From positions 1-52,113 of the IMG/VR virus record IMGVR_UViG_3300034061_005181: a stretch of 52,113 nucleotides of DNA. One strand, written 5' to 3'. The notes beneath the pieces are model-generated. The model had not been told where the DNA came from and made no database searches. It saw only the letters and a list, made by a program, of their open reading frames with translations. Source of the stretch: a virus. The position numbers and the translations under genes are program-made. Positions 2,781-34,911 of the stretch are shown here, piece by piece. Every line of letters begins with the position of its first letter. Position 1 is the first letter of the stretch.

Positions 2781-5624
2781 TTACTTACCAAGTTTTATTT
2801 TTATGAAAATATCATCATCGTAAGACTTCTTAACAGGACTACTCAATTTAGCAATAGCCAACAAATTCTTATCATCATCGTATAAACCTATGGAAGTAAC
2901 ATAGGTGAACGGTTGATTTGCAGAACATGGATATTTTAATACATTATCGAGAACAACTGCTGTTGGATTGTTGGTATAATTTGCTTCTGTAAATGGTACT
3001 CTAACATAATAATAGTTGGTTCCATAATTTTTTATTCTACGGCTTTTCATTGATTGACCGGATGCAGCGGCACCACTAATGGATGTAAACAATTTATATG
3101 CATTATCACCCGATATATTACTTCCAGTTACACTATTGAATCCCAAGTGATCATTCAATCGTTTTCCACTCAAAACAGCCAGACCCAATGCCGGATATAC
3201 TTTACCATAAGTTGTTATGTTAGAATTTACAAATATACTTCCAGTTCCACTATCATGTATACCATTATCCAAACTACCACTAACCAAATCATATGAGTAG
3301 TATGGATTTTCAACACAATATATCTGATTAACATATATCGAATTATCAATAAGAGATATTAGTTTTGGATTGGATCCAGATACTTTTACATTGCTTCCAG
3401 TATGAACATTATTTGCAATTAGACTACCAGAAAGACCCACTAAATTTAATTCAAAATTTCCAATATCAAGTTTATCACCGAAATGATTCCTATAAAATTT
3501 GACAACATATATGTCATCTGAATTATCCACTATACCATTTTCGTAGAAAGTAAATGTATCAAAATCAGAGTCCATTGCCATTAGTTCATATTGTTTGTAA
3601 ATTGCTCTGGTTAGTTGTTTATTATTATTTTCACTATCAAATATAGATCCGGATCCTTTTGAATGACCATACCATACTGAAAAATATGGTTTGGTTTTAT
3701 CACAGTCATCACATCCAATTATATCATAATAATAGTCTTTTGATGATCCAGATTGTAACGAACTTGTAACATAACAATCAACAGATTCTTCCGAGTTAAA
3801 CAAACCACGAGTTTCAGATTCAATATGTGATTTTATCATATCTTTTTCTGAAAATTTATGGTATATTAAAGTTTCCGGATCATCTAATGGAACACTTTTA
3901 CATTTTGCAATTTTTACAGTTTTATCGGTAAGGTATGGTATAACATCAGGTGGCTCTGGCATATCAACAACTTTTTTATTTTTATCTGCAGCATATGCAT
4001 ACATCTTAAATATATCATCCCTTACTGCCCCTCTACATATAGTGTAAAAATTAGCAGTTGTTATTTCTCTGCATCCGCAATTTGGAACTTCTGTTTGAAA
4101 TGGTTCATTTTCTACCATTATGTCCAAACATTCACAGTTGGGAAGAGAATTATTTAATACTTGATCCTCCCAATCGATAATTGTTTTAACAACTTTTTCC
4201 GTTGTTGTTCTGTATTGCATAACAACTTCACCGGTTTGAGGATCAGCAACACATGGTTGTTTTCTCTCCCATTTTATTTCATATTCTTCATGTATTGCAT
4301 ACTCTGTGCGAAGTCCGTCATAACAATTTCTATATGGAATCAATTCACGTAATCTAACATCAAGAAACATACGCAAACCAGGTTTTAACTCTACTGACTC
4401 TTCTGGCCAATTTTCATATGTTTTCTCATCTATTAGTTTTGTTGATATTTTTTTTATTCCAGTTTTTGATGTAAACGAAACATCAGTTTGTATTTTGTAA
4501 TTAACCGTTTCATCATTTGGTTCTACAATCTGAAACAAACCTTTTACATAATTACCATCTATCATTTGACCAGTTTGAAACTGTTTAACATCATCTGATA
4601 ATAAATTTATTTTAGATGGTGTATTTTGAAATATAGTATCTGCGGTTGTGGGTCCACCATTTGAATTTAAGTAAGTTAAATCACCATTTATTTCAACTCT
4701 AACATGACATTCTCCATCATTTATTACATATAATATTGGTTGTCTCCACGGACCTATCGGATTTGATTTTTTTAACCCAGCTACCGTTTGATCTGCAGTA
4801 TTATATTTTGAAACCTGATTTAATGTTTCAAACCATGTATATTCTGGTGTTTTCGATTTTTCGGATTGTGTAACTGTGTATAATTTATTATTGACTTTAT
4901 TGTTCAACACACCTGTATCTAGAATAGTTTGTGTGTTAAATTCATCTATATTGTATTCCCAAGGAGATGTTGATGTATCATACCATTCTACTGTAATGAA
5001 CAAATTTTTATATGGAACAGTGCCTTTAATCCATATAAAATCTTTATTATCTATTCTGTAATTTATTCCCTCTTTTAGATATGTTCTTTTGTCTAAATCG
5101 AGTATGGTTATAGACTTTATTTGAGATTTTGGTAATATAAATTCTGCATTAACTAACGCAGGTATTAACTGACCAACTCCGTCTCCGGTGATTCTTTTGT
5201 TTTTTTTATCGTATTTAAATGGTAATCTATATTTGTTGTATAGAACTAATCTTCCTGATATACTAGATGCTTTGAATTTTCTGCTAACCTCAACCCAAGG
5301 AATGCCATCACAAGGAGATATTCCGGGTGGGGGTATAGTTGGAACAACTATTGGGACTCCTGAATTATCTAATATGACGGGTTCATTGCCAATCAGTATA
5401 CCATTTTCTTCAATTTCTACGGGTCCAAGACCCTGTTGTTGAATTAAAATCAACTGTTTAGTCATAAAATCTAATTGATCAAACGGTACATTTGAATTGT
5501 AATTTACTTTTGCAGTATTGTTACCATATACCTTATCCATATATGGAACATTCCCATCTGCATTTTTCTGCAGAGTTTCTTGTGTATATTGTATACCATC
5601 TAATGTAACGCTTTTAAGTGCCAT
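2781..5624 (-). CDS. Large virion structural protein, probably tail/baseplate associated, 947 aa
   Basis: A large, Ser/Gly/Thr/Asn-rich, beta-looking protein typical of virion components. It has a Pro-rich stretch near residues 89-103, a Cys-rich middle (pairs CEC, CGC, CDDC) that could bind metal or form disulfides, then many SGS repeats. The final 80 residues include a VTSIGLYDDDKNLLAIAKLS segment. I recall similar C-terminal blocks from structural proteins of marine T4-like phages, but cannot name the family. It lies far from the tail cluster, between thioredoxin and small unknown genes. A host-contact or baseplate-decoration role is inference. Confidence 0.65.
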   Translation of the reverse strand: MALKSVTLDGIQYTQETLQKNADGNVPYMDKVYGNNTAKVNYNSNVPFDQLDFMTKQLILIQQQGLGPVEIEENGILIGNEPVILDNSGVPIVVPTIPPPGISPCDGIPWVEVSRKFKASSISGRLVLYNKYRLPFKYDKKNKRITGDGVGQLIPALVNAEFILPKSQIKSITILDLDKRTYLKEGINYRIDNKDFIWIKGTVPYKNLFITVEWYDTSTSPWEYNIDEFNTQTILDTGVLNNKVNNKLYTVTQSEKSKTPEYTWFETLNQVSKYNTADQTVAGLKKSNPIGPWRQPILYVINDGECHVRVEINGDLTYLNSNGGPTTADTIFQNTPSKINLLSDDVKQFQTGQMIDGNYVKGLFQIVEPNDETVNYKIQTDVSFTSKTGIKKISTKLIDEKTYENWPEESVELKPGLRMFLDVRLRELIPYRNCYDGLRTEYAIHEEYEIKWERKQPCVADPQTGEVVMQYRTTTEKVVKTIIDWEDQVLNNSLPNCECLDIMVENEPFQTEVPNCGCREITTANFYTICRGAVRDDIFKMYAYAADKNKKVVDMPEPPDVIPYLTDKTVKIAKCKSVPLDDPETLIYHKFSEKDMIKSHIESETRGLFNSEESVDCYVTSSLQSGSSKDYYYDIIGCDDCDKTKPYFSVWYGHSKGSGSIFDSENNNKQLTRAIYKQYELMAMDSDFDTFTFYENGIVDNSDDIYVVKFYRNHFGDKLDIGNFELNLVGLSGSLIANNVHTGSNVKVSGSNPKLISLIDNSIYVNQIYCVENPYYSYDLVSGSLDNGIHDSGTGSIFVNSNITTYGKVYPALGLAVLSGKRLNDHLGFNSVTGSNISGDNAYKLFTSISGAAASGQSMKSRRIKNYGTNYYYVRVPFTEANYTNNPTAVVLDNVLKYPCSANQPFTYVTSIGLYDDDKNLLAIAKLSSPVKKSYDDDIFIKIKLGK

Positions 5625-29021: not shown

Positions 29022-32000
29022 TTATTCCTGAACTCGTCTTCCATATGTGTTATCAACTGCAACATTATATGATTTTTTGAAATTCATAACTGATTTTATT
29101 TCTTCTACTGTTTTTTCACCAAATTTTATTACAGTTGGTTTATTTGCAACATCTGATATTACTGCAATTAACGTATCAAGTTTTTTCTCAACATTTACCA
29201 TAGATGTTGAAGATTGTCCCGGTATAGCACCGGCTTGTTGTATATTTGTTTGAGCCGATGAAATTGATGTTGGAGTTGTTGGGGATAATGCAACTGTACC
29301 AGATGTTTGTGGTTTTACCGATTCTTTATTGGATTCACCACCACCAAAGAATGATGTTATTCCACCTACCAATGAACCAACTGCATTTGAAATTTTTGAA
29401 CCCACACCACCGCCGGAAACTTTGTCCATGACTTCTGACAATTTATCTACATTCATATTGTTAATTGTATCTGCAAGTATCTTCAATGAATTTGATACCT
29501 CTATCAAACTCTTTGATATTGATGACATTTTTGCCGGTTCTAATGATGTCATCAATTTTTGTATTTGTGTGAGTGGACCTTGACCACCCATTAGTTTACC
29601 AAATCCCTCTGCAAGTGCACTTCCACCAATACTTTTTACAAGTCCACTCAATCCATCACCGAATTGTTCTAATTTACTACCATCTATTTTTCCAAGATTA
29701 TCAGCCATTCCTTTCATAGCAGTTCCAATTCCAACTATACCAGCAACAACAATTCCTATTGTTTTGGGATCAACACTTGATATTATCTTCATCAGTTGAT
29801 CTATTGGACTATCACCGCCCACCAAACTACCAAGTGCATCCAATCCAGCACCAATACCACTACCTGCACCAAAACTAAAAATTGCCTCACCCAACTTCAT
29901 CAATCCATCTGCAACTTTACCTATGGTCACAGGATCTAATTTAGTTAAGGACATCAGTTTATCAATAACAGTTACTATACCACCTGCGATAGCATTTATT
30001 ACTTTTACTATACTATCACCAACACTATTTATTACTCCAGATATGCCATCAAATACTGATTTTATTATCGGTGCAATTTCTTGTATTGCCTTAACAAATA
30101 CAGTTTCCAACACATCTGCAATTTTAATCAATACAGGCATAAATGCAATTAAAACTTTACCAACAGTTTCTATTACTTTTTGTATTATTGGTCCTGCTAT
30201 TTCAAGTGCTTTTACCAAAACCTTACCAATTATTTCTGCAAACTTCATCAATACAGGAGCGATTGCCTTTATCGCAGGTGCAGCCATGTATAAAGATGCT
30301 CCTAATGCAAGAAAGAATAAACCAACTGCAATGGCAACTGTACCCATGGGTACAACAGGAGTAGATAATGACCTACCTAATGCCTCCAAACCTTTTCCTA
30401 ATCCAGTCAATATTCCTTCAAATGCAGAACCAATTCCTTTACCGACTGATTTCAAAGCACTACCCAAACCCTTTCCAAAATCTGCAATCTTTTTACCAAC
30501 AGATGATGCCTTGCCTGCCATCTTATCCGTTTTTTCTAATTTTGCATTTTGTTTATCAAGTAAGGCATCTGATTTATCTGCACCACCTCCACCGAGTTTA
30601 CCTAATGCCTTTCCGGCAATACCGCCCATTTTACCACCGACTTTACTTAATGATCCACCTATATTTGATAAAATAGATTTACCAACATCCATTACTTTTT
30701 CTTTCATCATGCTCAGACCGGCACCTATCAATGATTTCGCAGCAAAAGCACCACCTATTAGTGTCACAGCTTTTAATACGCTACCAAAACCGGCTTCTGT
30801 TTGTCCAACTGCACCTGTGACATTTTCTACACCAGTTGTTACTTTACCAACTTGATCGGAAACTTGACCTACACTATCAGTAACTTGTTGTGTTGTATCT
30901 TGAACTCCTCCGAACATTCCAAGTATAGATGTAACTGGTTTTAATATACTACCCAATATACTAAACATCGTTTTTGCTATAGGAATTATACCTCTTATTA
31001 TTCCTGATATTGAGTTTATTATTGTATCAAAATCACCGCCTGCCTCGGCAGCATCCAACATACCATGAACCATCTCTAATATCGGAGAAAGTAATTTTGA
31101 TAGTTTTTCTTGAACTTTTTCAAGAGCATCAGACATACGTTTTTTTACTTCTGCGGATTCTTTTTCTTTTGCAAGTTGTTCAATATATTGTTTAGTTTGT
31201 GCACTCCCGCCTTTTGCCAATTCTGCATTTAGTTGTTTGGAGTTCATTGCCTGCAGTGCAGTCATTCTTTCTTGGCTCATATTCAAATCTTTCAATTTTT
31301 GTGCATTCGTAAGCATCTCTGTCATTTCTTCAACAGACATACCCATTGCTTCTGCCATAGACTTTTGCCCAAGTCTATTCATCTTTGTAAAATCTTCTAA
31401 TGAACCGGCTTGATTTAACAATTCATCTTGTAGTCCTGCAATATCACCATTCAATGCAAGTTCTCGTGCCTTATCTAACTGTATGTTTTTACCTGTTAAG
31501 ACTCTTGCCTCCATCTCTTTTGTCAATGATGATTCAATATCCATCAATCCATCACCAATATCTTGAACTTTTTTCAAATCATGTCCAAGTGCTTGTGCCT
31601 TTTGTGCAGCTTTAATCAACTCTTGTGTTCCACCTTTAAATGCAACTTGAACACTTGGTGGTATTTTAGCAAGGACTTTTAACGATTCTTTTGCAGTCAT
31701 TATACCTTTTCCAAGTGTTGTTGCTTCTTTGGTTAATTGTCCCATGCTCTTTCCACTCATCGCAGAGACGGTTTGGATATTTTTTATCTCATCACTACTT
31801 AAACCAAATTTTTCACTAAGCACGGTTACATCTTTTACCAATTGTTGTGCTTGTTTGTTTCCACTTAGCATTTGCCCAGCAATATCAATTCCACCCATTA
31901 TTTCTGATGTAGTTTTTATACCCTTAACAACCTCTTTTGAATTTATACCGACCAATTTCATTTGACCAGCCATATCAACGGTAGCATCCCTTAACTTGAA

Positions 32001-33161
32001 TGATTCTTTTCGTGTTATACCAAATTCTTGACCTATTTCAGCCGCTTCCGAATCTACCTTTCCAATCGCACCAACAAGAAAATTAACAGCAGAAAGTAAT
32101 AAACCTATTCCAAGAGCTGCCAAAAATTTAGGTGCAAGAGAAATCATACTCTTTAATCCACCCAATCCTTGTGAGAACGCATCTTTAAAATTACCGTTTA
32201 ATCCAGATTTGACTGCCTCTGCAAATTTTTTCTTCATCTCATCTGCAGTTTTATCTATACCCATTATCTTATTTATTTTATCACCGGCAGGAAATTTGTT
32301 TATTAAACTACCGGCACCAATTCCCATGTTAGCTATTGAACCTGATATTAAATCAATAGTATCTGCTTGTTTTTGTAGAGCATCATTTTCGCTTTGTATA
32401 TCCTTAAATCGACCTTTTATCAAATCCAATGATTTTTTTGCTTGATTATATTGATCCTTGGTCATGTTACCACGTTCTTGTTCTAAACTTGCCTCTCTTA
32501 CTTTTATATCAAGAGCCATATCAGATAAATCTATTGCCTTAAATGCCCCATCTTTTGCCCTTTCTTTTGCCATTTGCAATTTATTTTCTGTGCTTAATAA
32601 GTCTTCAGCAAGAGAACCTGCTTCTGTTTGTGCGTTTATGTATCTTGATTGTTGGAGTACAGTCCCTTCTGTCTCTAATTTCTGTGATTGTAATGAATCG
32701 GTTATTGTCTGATATGCAAAACCCTGTGTTTTTATGTAATCTAATGTTTTTGCACTATCCCCATTGATTGCTTGTATAAGTGCAGATGATGCAGAATGAT
32801 CTTTAGTTATATTACCAACGGATCTACTAATATCCTTAACAGTTGAAGAAAGTTTACCACTCAAATCATTTTGATCACTGATATATCCGGCGGTAGAACC
32901 ATGTAGTTTATTCGTTTCTTGTAATCTTTGATAAGACTCTTTATCTATTTTTTCAATCTTTTTTCGTATTTCTTCTTCTTTTTCGATACTATCTGTGCGT
33001 AAAGCTTCGAGCTTAATAAGCTTTTCGGTATCAGAAACTTCACTACTGATTTGATCAGAAATTTTTTCTTTTAATTTTAAAATTTCTTTTTCAATACCAA
33101 GTCGTTCTTCTGTTAAATTATTTAGTTTCGATTCTAATTCTTTATCTTTTTCATTTGCCAT
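29022..33161 (-). CDS. Tail tape measure protein, 1379 aa
   Basis: A long, largely helical protein. Residues 1-50 are a coiled coil (LESKLNNLTEERLG). Two hydrophobic segments appear near residues 340-365 (FLAALGIGLLLSAVNFLVG) and 950-975 (VAIAVGLFFLALGASLYMAA), as in tape measures that enter the host envelope. Low-complexity Gly/Lys blocks follow residue 850. Position after sheath, tube and the chaperone pair fits exactly. At 1.5 A per helical residue, 1379 residues would set a tail near 200 nm (inference). GGTGA precedes the ATG. A terminator hairpin with a promoter motif in its loop lies immediately upstream. Confidence 0.93.
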   Translation of the reverse strand: MANEKDKELESKLNNLTEERLGIEKEILKLKEKISDQISSEVSDTEKLIKLEALRTDSIEKEEEIRKKIEKIDKESYQRLQETNKLHGSTAGYISDQNDLSGKLSSTVKDISRSVGNITKDHSASSALIQAINGDSAKTLDYIKTQGFAYQTITDSLQSQKLETEGTVLQQSRYINAQTEAGSLAEDLLSTENKLQMAKERAKDGAFKAIDLSDMALDIKVREASLEQERGNMTKDQYNQAKKSLDLIKGRFKDIQSENDALQKQADTIDLISGSIANMGIGAGSLINKFPAGDKINKIMGIDKTADEMKKKFAEAVKSGLNGNFKDAFSQGLGGLKSMISLAPKFLAALGIGLLLSAVNFLVGAIGKVDSEAAEIGQEFGITRKESFKLRDATVDMAGQMKLVGINSKEVVKGIKTTSEIMGGIDIAGQMLSGNKQAQQLVKDVTVLSEKFGLSSDEIKNIQTVSAMSGKSMGQLTKEATTLGKGIMTAKESLKVLAKIPPSVQVAFKGGTQELIKAAQKAQALGHDLKKVQDIGDGLMDIESSLTKEMEARVLTGKNIQLDKARELALNGDIAGLQDELLNQAGSLEDFTKMNRLGQKSMAEAMGMSVEEMTEMLTNAQKLKDLNMSQERMTALQAMNSKQLNAELAKGGSAQTKQYIEQLAKEKESAEVKKRMSDALEKVQEKLSKLLSPILEMVHGMLDAAEAGGDFDTIINSISGIIRGIIPIAKTMFSILGSILKPVTSILGMFGGVQDTTQQVTDSVGQVSDQVGKVTTGVENVTGAVGQTEAGFGSVLKAVTLIGGAFAAKSLIGAGLSMMKEKVMDVGKSILSNIGGSLSKVGGKMGGIAGKALGKLGGGGADKSDALLDKQNAKLEKTDKMAGKASSVGKKIADFGKGLGSALKSVGKGIGSAFEGILTGLGKGLEALGRSLSTPVVPMGTVAIAVGLFFLALGASLYMAAPAIKAIAPVLMKFAEIIGKVLVKALEIAGPIIQKVIETVGKVLIAFMPVLIKIADVLETVFVKAIQEIAPIIKSVFDGISGVINSVGDSIVKVINAIAGGIVTVIDKLMSLTKLDPVTIGKVADGLMKLGEAIFSFGAGSGIGAGLDALGSLVGGDSPIDQLMKIISSVDPKTIGIVVAGIVGIGTAMKGMADNLGKIDGSKLEQFGDGLSGLVKSIGGSALAEGFGKLMGGQGPLTQIQKLMTSLEPAKMSSISKSLIEVSNSLKILADTINNMNVDKLSEVMDKVSGGGVGSKISNAVGSLVGGITSFFGGGESNKESVKPQTSGTVALSPTTPTSISSAQTNIQQAGAIPGQSSTSMVNVEKKLDTLIAVISDVANKPTVIKFGEKTVEEIKSVMNFKKSYNVAVDNTYGRRVQE

Positions 33162-33178: not shown

Positions 33179-33213
33179 AAAAAAAGGTTTACATACTATA
33201 AATATGTAAACCT
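33179..33213 (-). terminator. Terminator between chaperone and tape measure genes
   Basis: Eleven-base-pair stem AGGTTTACATA/TATGTAAACCT, 7-base loop, then T7. The loop contains the promoter-like motif. Confidence 0.82.
33198..33205 (-). promoter_or_regulatory. ATATTTAT promoter-like motif in a terminator loop
   Basis: Straddles the loop of the hairpin 33185-33213, 36 nt before the tape measure ATG. A transcript starting just downstream would not contain the complete hairpin. Confidence 0.5.
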
Positions 33214-33217
33214 AAAA

Positions 33218-33469
33218 TTATTTACGCACAGATGGTTTTGAGAATCGAGGTGGAGATGCTGGTGTTTTCTGTGATTCTGAATTTACAGAATTATTTTCTT
33301 CATCCAATTTTTTCTTCACCAATTTTATGTAATAATGTCTCAAATATATTGGAAGATTATACACCTCATCCCAAGTGAACCCACCTTTTCCAAAATAACA
33401 CAAAGAAAATATTTCTTCATGTAAACCCAATTTATATTCAGGTGGTAGGCCAAAAAAATGATACCTCAA
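33218..33469 (-). CDS. Tail assembly chaperone, second reading frame (T-like), 83 aa
   Basis: The frame opens at a TTG at 33469 inside the end of the gp26-family gene and has no ATG start. It opens with FFGLPPEYKLGLHEEIFSL, continues YFGKGGFTWDEVYNLPIYLR, and ends Ser/Pro/Lys-rich. It lies between the gp26-like gene and the tape measure, as the T frame does in lambda-type G/GT loci. It is probably expressed as a fusion by frameshifting at an A7 tract (T7 on the coding strand). A separate TTG start cannot be excluded. The expected role is to keep the tape measure protein soluble and guide tube assembly. Confidence 0.8.
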   Translation of the reverse strand: MRYHFFGLPPEYKLGLHEEIFSLCYFGKGGFTWDEVYNLPIYLRHYYIKLVKKKLDEENNSVNSESQKTPASPPRFSKPSVRK

Positions 33470-34304
33470 TCGGTATGTCTAACTCCTTTACCTCACCAGT
33501 AGTATCGGAAACGAATGTGAAAGTCATATCAAGATCGGGAGATATTGTTCTCATATACTCTCTTAATGCCCTCGAATCTAATGCAAATAATTGATTATCA
33601 ACAAAATCATTTATAGCAGCTCTGCCTGTTTCACCATCAACTGCAATAATAATATGTTTGAGTCTTGTTGTTAATTCCTTATCTATTCCGGTTTTAACAA
33701 GAGTTTTATTCATAGATTTTATTTCAGACTGAATCTGTTTATCTATGTCATGTGTTAATAATCTAAATGTAACGGTTCTTTTTGAATTTGGTAAAGTAAA
33801 ATCAAACGTATTCTTACGCGACTCAAATAAGCTGTAATCGACCTCCTTGTGCTCAATTTGAGTTAAATCTATTGTTACTTTTTGTTTATTGCTGGTAGAA
33901 AAAGGATCATCAATTTCTACCGTATAATCTTTACCATATCCCAAAATTCTAGCTGCAACCATAATTGCATTTTTGTCACCAACATATAAATCACCATAAT
34001 TGAAAGGTGTAACAATCAAAGACTCAAACAATTTATCTAAAACCACACCTTGTTTAATAAGGTTCTGTGATGTTAAAATATCTTCTTCTCTAGCAGTCAT
34101 ATATTTCATTTCTATCGTTCCATCTGCCAAAGGGTGTCCTTCTGGATACAAGAGACCCTTTGAAGGCAATGGTATAATTTCCGTTGGAAAGTTAGTTTTT
34201 TTAACAGAAGTTTGTTTATGATCGGCAAGAAGTTGTGCCTTAATTTCGGCATCTGAAACAATTTCTTCATTGGCTACATTGTAACCGGTTGGAATTTTTG
34301 TCAT
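33438..34304 (-). CDS. gp26-family tail assembly protein (probable tape measure chaperone, G-like), 288 aa
   Basis: LPSKGLLYPEGHPL, MKYMTAREEDIL and SQNLIKQGVVLDKLFESLI match the T4 gp26 (T4 baseplate protein) family. An Ile/Asp-rich middle and a DMTFTF strand follow, ending SFFWPTT. The frame ends 32 nt inside the start of a second small ORF, with a T7 run in the overlap. This lies between the tube and tape measure genes, the position of lambda G. I infer it is the upstream part of a chaperone pair rather than a fixed hub subunit. AGGATTT precedes the ATG; an ATATTTAT motif is 50 nt upstream. Confidence 0.83.
   Translation of the reverse strand: MTKIPTGYNVANEEIVSDAEIKAQLLADHKQTSVKKTNFPTEIIPLPSKGLLYPEGHPLADGTIEMKYMTAREEDILTSQNLIKQGVVLDKLFESLIVTPFNYGDLYVGDKNAIMVAARILGYGKDYTVEIDDPFSTSNKQKVTIDLTQIEHKEVDYSLFESRKNTFDFTLPNSKRTVTFRLLTHDIDKQIQSEIKSMNKTLVKTGIDKELTTRLKHIIIAVDGETGRAAINDFVDNQLFALDSRALREYMRTISPDLDMTFTFVSDTTGEVKELDIPIEVSFFWPTT
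33452..33458 (-). other. Probable programmed frameshift site (T7 run) in tail chaperone overlap
   Basis: Seven A on the plus strand, T7 on the coding strand, stand in codons TCA TTT TTT TGG of the gp26-like gene, 12 bases before its stop. The second frame reads CAT TTT TTT GGC. Passing from one to the other needs a +1 or -2 slip on this run. Tail chaperone genes of other phages use -1, +1 or -2 slips at such runs. The second ORF has no ATG. Confidence 0.6.
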
Positions 34305-34422: not shown

Positions 34423-34911
34423 TCAGTATTGGAGGATAGCATAATCATAAGCGAGTGTGAGAGAAATCTCAACAAACGCATCATTTGCCCAATCCATTTC
34501 ACCGAATGTTGTTGCAGTAATGAAAGCACCTTTAAGTGTCCATTCTTCAACTTTATCACCAACAGGACCGAGAACATGAAGTGTTATATCTTTCTTATAG
34601 AAGTCAGAATAACCATCACGACCTGTTACAGATTCATGTGAAAGACGAACCCATTCCATTGTTGCCTGAGCAGCGGATGGGACGATTGGATCATATAATT
34701 TGATTGTAATATCTTGCCATTCACCCTTTCCCTTTACTTTACGTTTGACGTTGATGTGGTCAAGTGTGATTGGATTGAAACTGATGTTTGGTCTACCAGC
34801 ACCTTTTACCAAATATGCAGGAACTCCTTCAATATACATAATAAATCGGTTCTGTAATTTTGGCTCAAACGGGGTAAAAAAGATTTCCGTAGGATCGAGT
34901 AATTCAGCCAT
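34423..34911 (-). CDS. Tail tube protein, gp19-like
   Basis: A 162-residue protein of the T4 gp19 type that stacks as hexameric rings to form the inner tube. The N-terminus reads FEPKLQNRFIMYIEGVPAYL, followed by SFNPITLDHINVKRKVKGKG and WQDITIKLYDP; near the end is GEMDWANDAFVEISLTLAYDY. These beta strands match the tube fold. GGAG precedes the ATG, and an ATATTTAT motif is 32 nt upstream. It follows the sheath gene after a terminator, so sheath and tube have separate transcripts. Confidence 0.93.
   Translation of the reverse strand: MAELLDPTEIFFTPFEPKLQNRFIMYIEGVPAYLVKGAGRPNISFNPITLDHINVKRKVKGKGEWQDITIKLYDPIVPSAAQATMEWVRLSHESVTGRDGYSDFYKKDITLHVLGPVGDKVEEWTLKGAFITATTFGEMDWANDAFVEISLTLAYDYAILQY

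Follow-up and report, generated by a model that had tools for sequence, protein, structure and literature searches.

In the viral record IMGVR_UViG_3300034061_005181, a gene resembling gp26 of phage T4 overlaps a second open reading frame (ORF) that lacks an ATG. This arrangement raises the question of whether the two frames are joined by a slip to give a short and a long tail assembly chaperone, as in the G/GT pair of phage lambda, and in which direction such a slip would go. We analysed a stretch of 52,113 bases from this one record (the window) together with its relatives. The comparative sequence evidence supported the proposal of the first-pass annotation that the two frames form a frameshifted G/GT tail chaperone pair, and we hold it to be very probable that the locus encodes TAC-N and TAC-NC (G and GT) by way of a +1 ribosomal slip at a run of seven Ts (T7). 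From these comparisons we infer the shift itself, its ribosomal nature, its +1 direction and its efficiency, and also, for this phage, the role as a chaperone. The G/GT reading is supported because the slip site is conserved, the +1 frame is under purifying selection, some lineages have no start codon for the second frame, the gene order fits, and the extension is related, through cyanophages, to the C terminus of T4 gp51.

The overlapping frames and their neighbourhood

The G frame (frame 0) starts with an ATG at 34304 and ends with a TGA at 33440-33438 (Table 1). Relative to it, the second ORF is shifted by +1 (which equals -2) and is open from about 33478 to a stop at 33218; its sole upstream start-like codon is a TTG six codons ahead of the shift, at 33469 or nearby. 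The T7 run stands within the overlap, in the coding-strand context TCA TTT TTT TGG CCT ACC ACC TGA. The first-pass annotation had described the overlap with an ORF lacking an ATG, the T7 run inside it and the position of the pair between the tube and tape measure genes, and all three descriptions hold. The gene order is thus that of a tail chaperone pair, and the sheath gene is located farther upstream than the tail tube gene. Because only 11 runs of at least seven Ts occur on the coding strand in the whole 52 kb, the chance of a T7 run falling within the last ~20 nt before a given stop is well under 1%. A second terminator-like hairpin was observed at 34389-34363 on the minus strand, so that the chaperone gene is flanked by such hairpins on both sides, and it may be transcribed as its own unit.

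Table 1. Features of the chaperone locus and its neighbours, in window coordinates
Feature	Position	Strand	Evidence or remark
TAC-N (G, gp26-like), frame 0, 288 aa	33438..34304	-	PF12322; phrog_150; dN/dS 0.15; AlphaFold pLDDT 83
Slippery run T7	33452..33458	-	frame 0 TTT TTT TGG; +1 shift gives TTT TTT GGC
TAC-C (T domain), +1 frame, 77 codons + stop, without ATG	33218..33451	-	conserved ORF; dN/dS 0.29; match to cyanophage T profile
TAC-NC (GT), predicted fusion by +1 shift, 361 aa	33218..34304	-	inferred product; layout as in the in-frame fusion L161 and T4 gp51
Tail tube protein, upstream neighbour	34423..34911	-	PF06841; phrog_4542
Tape measure protein, downstream neighbour, presumed client	29022..33161	-	phrog_305, E 5e-16
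Terminator-like hairpin between T domain and tape measure gene	33185..33213	-	13-bp stem and T run

In the mechanism that we propose, most ribosomes would read frame 0 and make TAC-N, stopping a few codons past the slippery Phe codons. A minority would slip at UUU_UUU_UGG, where the peptidyl-tRNA-Phe in the P site would re-pair one base downstream, from UUU to UUU. A slow UGG codon in the A site may favour this slip, and these ribosomes would go on in the +1 frame to make TAC-NC with its extra helical T domain. By analogy with lambda, the tape measure protein would be coated by many copies of G and few of GT, T would recruit tube subunits, and G and GT would both depart before tail maturation. 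Lambda gpG/gpGT, compared here by layout, resembles the window in having a short form and a frameshift-extended long form between the tube and tape measure genes, whereas lambda shifts -1 and the window would shift +1. The tail chaperone frameshifts of HSTV-2 (+1) and phage Mu (-2), which belong to different phages, resemble the window in reaching GT through the +1 frame (PMC5009743).

Conservation of the slip site and direction of the proposed shift

Of eighty relatives taken from viral contigs, 78 cover the site. The sequence TTTTTTTGGCC was present exactly in 78/78 of them, shortly ahead of the frame-0 stop, at protein identities down to about 52%, and in each it was followed by a +1-frame ORF, the complete ones being 68-82 aa long (an example of the conserved core is LHEEIFSLCYxGKGGFTWxEVYNLPIxLRRFYI). 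The check proposed in the first-pass annotation, that relatives keep both the overlap and the run, came out in its favour for these 78. These relatives cluster as 41 lineages at 92% identity, 28 at 85% and 5 at 60%. For both Phe codons of the run, 40/40 representatives use TTT. No other column of the 83 in G that are conserved and degenerate was fully codon-invariant, although TTC makes up 19% of the Phe codons in these genes. The overlapping frames may account for part of this invariance. Outside the overlap, the median dN/dS of the +1 (T) frame was 0.29, and the same DNA read in the other two frames gave 0.89 and 1.74; by these estimates the T frame is under purifying selection. A downstream RNA structure that might act as a stimulator was weak in this clade (mean z -0.9) and stronger in cyanophages (mean z -1.9), and no conserved Shine-Dalgarno-like stimulator was found in this clade.

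These observations bear on the idea that the gp26-like gene encodes a structural subunit of the hub and that its overlap with the second ORF is an unimportant relic. The database name of phrog_150 is baseplate hub, and some T4 genetics put gp26 in the hub (PMC3004832), but a T frame evolving under purifying selection, an invariant slip site and a gene order matching G/GT make this idea extremely improbable. The second ORF might instead be translated as a separate protein, unfused to G, from the TTG through translational coupling. Such a TTG is present ahead of the run in the window, the record of Microcystis phage Mel-JY01 annotates a separate CDS at this place, and an ATG is found 5 nt past the G stop in most cyanophages. 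However, the start codons vary among relatives whose slip sites are invariant: the +1 frame of 17/41 lineages offers no ATG, GTG or TTG up to and including the site (11 of these 17 have no start codon within 25 codons), and 17/78 cyanophage relatives have no start within 30 nt of the stop. Separate translation of T is accordingly judged highly improbable.

More distant relatives allowed the direction of the proposed shift to be addressed. T7GG was also found in Mel-JY01 (58% identity) and in Rhodothermus phage RM378, whose G is merely 26% identical. In RM378 (L084, 4474-5834) both T7GG and a +1 ORF are present, the next annotated gene is an opposite-strand tail tube gene, the order of tube, chaperone and tape measure is not kept, and the T sequence matched no other T profile. 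The +1 relation was also found without an intact run in Flavobacterium phage immuto (TTT CTT TGG), the uncultured phage LR756508 (TTT CTA TTC), Streptococcus phage GXN1 (TTC TTT CGT) and Listeria phage LIS04 (TTT TTT AGT). The gene order of the window is shared by immuto and LIS04 by annotation and by Mel-JY01 by position. Nine contigs from bacterial genome bins, mostly of Bacteroidota, keep the +1 relation as well, with T7GG in 8/9 and T8C in 1/9. A phage contig of this kind (L202) was placed in a Woesearchaeota bin, which is very likely a binning error. A weak match to mycobacteriophage Phreeze (E 0.8) was put down to chance.

Every +1 member tested contains an in-frame UUU with U or C as the next base, where tRNA-Phe is able to re-pair one base forward. 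The first-pass annotation had left the slip as either +1 or -2; a +1 slip fits all of the relatives, and a -2 slip fails in LR756508 and GXN1. A shift of -2, which would produce the same G/GT pair with one additional Phe, is known in phage Mu (PMC5009743), and T7 allows full re-pairing at the second TTT. The interrupted runs of LR756508 (TTT CTA) and GXN1 (TTC TTT CGT) have no adequate -2 re-pairing nearby, yet they do have a UUU_C site for +1, and we regard the -2 alternative as unlikely. The conserved seven-base homopolymer would also suit transcriptional slippage, in which RNA polymerase loses one U or gains two and a mixed mRNA pool gives rise to both proteins. Against this, +1 relatives that have no homopolymer keep the frame relation (immuto TTTCTTT, LR756508 TTTCTATT, GXN1 TTCTTTC), and a run of seven is short for efficient slippage by RNA polymerase; this explanation is quite improbable. 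Thus, +1 ribosomal slippage is favoured over both because all tested +1 members can re-pair forward and -2 re-pairing is absent near the sites of LR756508 and GXN1.

Relation to T4 gp26 and gp51, cyanophages and bacterial loci

The window G scored 27.3 bits against PF12322, above the family cut-off of 24.5, and matched phrog_150 with an E value of 2e-11. PF12322 matches T4 gp26 and T4 gp51 alike, and phrog_150 likewise covers both. T4 gp51 has about 48 C-terminal residues beyond gp26, and the last ~45 columns of phrog_150 are covered only by gp51. In cyanophages and several other phages of the T4 superfamily, the gp26 gene has at its end the canonical -1 heptamer T_TTT_TTC, which was found in 77/78 relatives of P-SSM4 gp26. 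In the exception (L161, 1501-2391), the slippery site lacks two bases, resulting in a natural in-frame G-T fusion; this is either real or an assembly error, and if it is real, the long form alone would be made. The cyanophage T domain lies in the -1 frame; records either label it "gp51, baseplate hub assembly catalyst" or leave it without annotation. It is unannotated in S-CAM1, ACG-2014b and S-CAM8, and other records call a separate gp51; the missing annotation is apparently due to the missing ATG.

Profile comparisons connected these T domains. The window and cyanophage T profiles matched at 94% (E 1.3e-7), and those of cyanophages and the T4 gp51 C terminus at 98% (E 2e-12), both E values being for single comparisons, while the direct match of the window to T4 gp51 was weak (E 5e-4 to 2e-3). 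On these profiles, the window T domain is homologous to the T4 gp51 C terminus by way of the cyanophages. A gp26-like gene was also observed in the 595 kb phage LR756511 (L087, about 5150-5426). The ORF downstream of it is in the -1 frame, the overlap contains the heptamer GGGTTTT, and the extension resembles the T domain (profile E 5e-5).

None of the frameshift genomes searched contains more than one PF12322 copy (in two genomes closely related to the window the match fell below the threshold), and six sampled Straboviridae having both gp26 and gp51 contain two. The Vibrio schizotequatrovirus VH7D has one copy in the -1 arrangement. In the phylogenetic tree, gp26 and gp51 of the six Straboviridae clustered together (94/96), apart from the frameshift phages, and VH7D was placed beside this group with weak support. 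T4 encodes both forms as paralogs, gp26 being the short and gp51 the long one, and because of these copy numbers and the grouping of gp26 with gp51 in the tree, T4 appears to have swapped the frameshift for a gene duplication. The T4-like chaperones (gp26 as TAC-N, gp51 as TAC-NC) have the family PF12322/phrog_150, the neighbourhood and, through cyanophages, the T domain in common with the window, whereas the T domain of the window lies in the +1 frame at TTTTTTTGG, cyanophages use -1 at T_TTT_TTC and T4 has two paralogous genes.

Predicted structures were also compared. The order of strands and helices was similar in the models of the window G and of a T4-type gp51 (pLDDT 82), the latter having three additional C-terminal helices of lower confidence, and the viral structures matched by both models were mostly gp26-type proteins. 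After realignment, 2OB9, a tail assembly chaperone of HK97, ranked first among the PDB matches of the window G (Z 4.1, rmsd 5.3 over 97), ahead of PLE1 5IR0 (Z 3.7), which has been named a tail assembly chaperone (PMC12987554). Both are low scores, and the Foldseek match to HK97 was weak (E 1.0), so the likeness of the modelled G to HK97 gp13 is a weak one and the fold likeness to tail assembly chaperones is suggestive. The PDB matches of the gp51 model were uninformative.

Among 19 T-domain sequences, 6 matched DUF6760 (PF20546) at E values up to 1, the best being 3.6e-5; the window T itself gave 11.9 bits (E 0.25) against a family cut-off of 27. DUF6760 was present in 3/296 Bacteroidota genomes sampled, and a search of the order of these three genomes revealed no further carriers. 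In two loci (L211 and L212, 859-1623, plus strand), a single ORF of 255 aa following a gp19-type tube gene carries two domains in frame, PF12322 with E values of 2.5e-9 and 1.4e-8 and DUF6760 with E values of 1.5e-6 and 5.5e-5. In the third (L210, 841-647, minus strand), the DUF6760 ORF lacks a start codon ahead of its core and overlaps, in another frame, the end of the short ORF that comes before it; this short ORF gave no PF12322 match. The L210 DUF6760 ORF also showed a weak match (E 0.014) to PF06528 (Phage_P2_GpE), which in P2 belongs to the frameshifted tail chaperone locus. The Bacteroidota loci thus differ from the +1 overlap of the window in having an in-frame fusion (L211, L212) or overlapping frames (L210). 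Judged by these sequence matches, tail chaperones of contractile systems may have DUF6760 as their T domain, a role that we did not find stated in the literature searched.

Prior work and implications for the family

A 2010 publication (PMC3004832) already counted T4 gp26 and gp51 among the hub assembly chaperones, and a 2016 review described G-T frameshifting as conserved "except T4" (PMC5009743). According to the papers that cite it (PMC10885494, PMC12846349), the study of Vladimirov, Gautam & Davidson (2022, Virology 566:9-15) identified T4 gp26 and gp51 as the short and long tail assembly chaperones; the same papers state that some T4-like phages carry a short gene beside a longer, fused one (PMC10885494) and that TAC-N genes of T4-like phages have poly-T -1 signals (PMC12846349). 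In the record of Acinetobacter phage Stupor, gp26, gp51 and gp28 are named tape measure protein assembly chaperones. The suggestion of the first-pass annotation that the gp26 family chaperones the tape measure rather than forming the hub was thus right in substance and, from the 2010 listing and from Vladimirov et al. as cited, not new. The same citations rule out presenting the short and long T4 paralogs as a new finding. Our comparisons independently lead to the identification attributed to Vladimirov et al.

With the family-level chaperone claim already published, as these citing papers describe it, the window represents a recognised kind of locus with a +1 instead of a -1 shift. As far as checked against the prior work in that form, what is new is the +1 direction in this clade and its distant relatives; also new, as far as checked, is the tie between the T domain and DUF6760 in bacterial contractile-tail loci. 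We lean towards the view that the TAC-N/TAC-NC proteins of T4-type phages and of bacterial contractile-tail loci form a single homologous family, with DUF6760 as TAC-C. Its long form would arise by +1 slippage in this clade and in the phages of Flavobacterium, Listeria, Streptococcus and Rhodothermus, by -1 slippage in cyanophages and others, by in-frame fusion, and in T4 by gene duplication.

Independent sequences confirm that the genes labelled "baseplate hub" in large groups of environmental phages very likely encode tail assembly chaperones. The short ORF downstream of them, which often has no annotation or is called hypothetical, is very likely half of a fusion protein. Annotation pipelines that consider only -1 shifts would overlook the +1 members. 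The occurrence of +1, -1, fused and duplicated solutions in one family would provide a natural experiment in the encoding of a fixed protein ratio.
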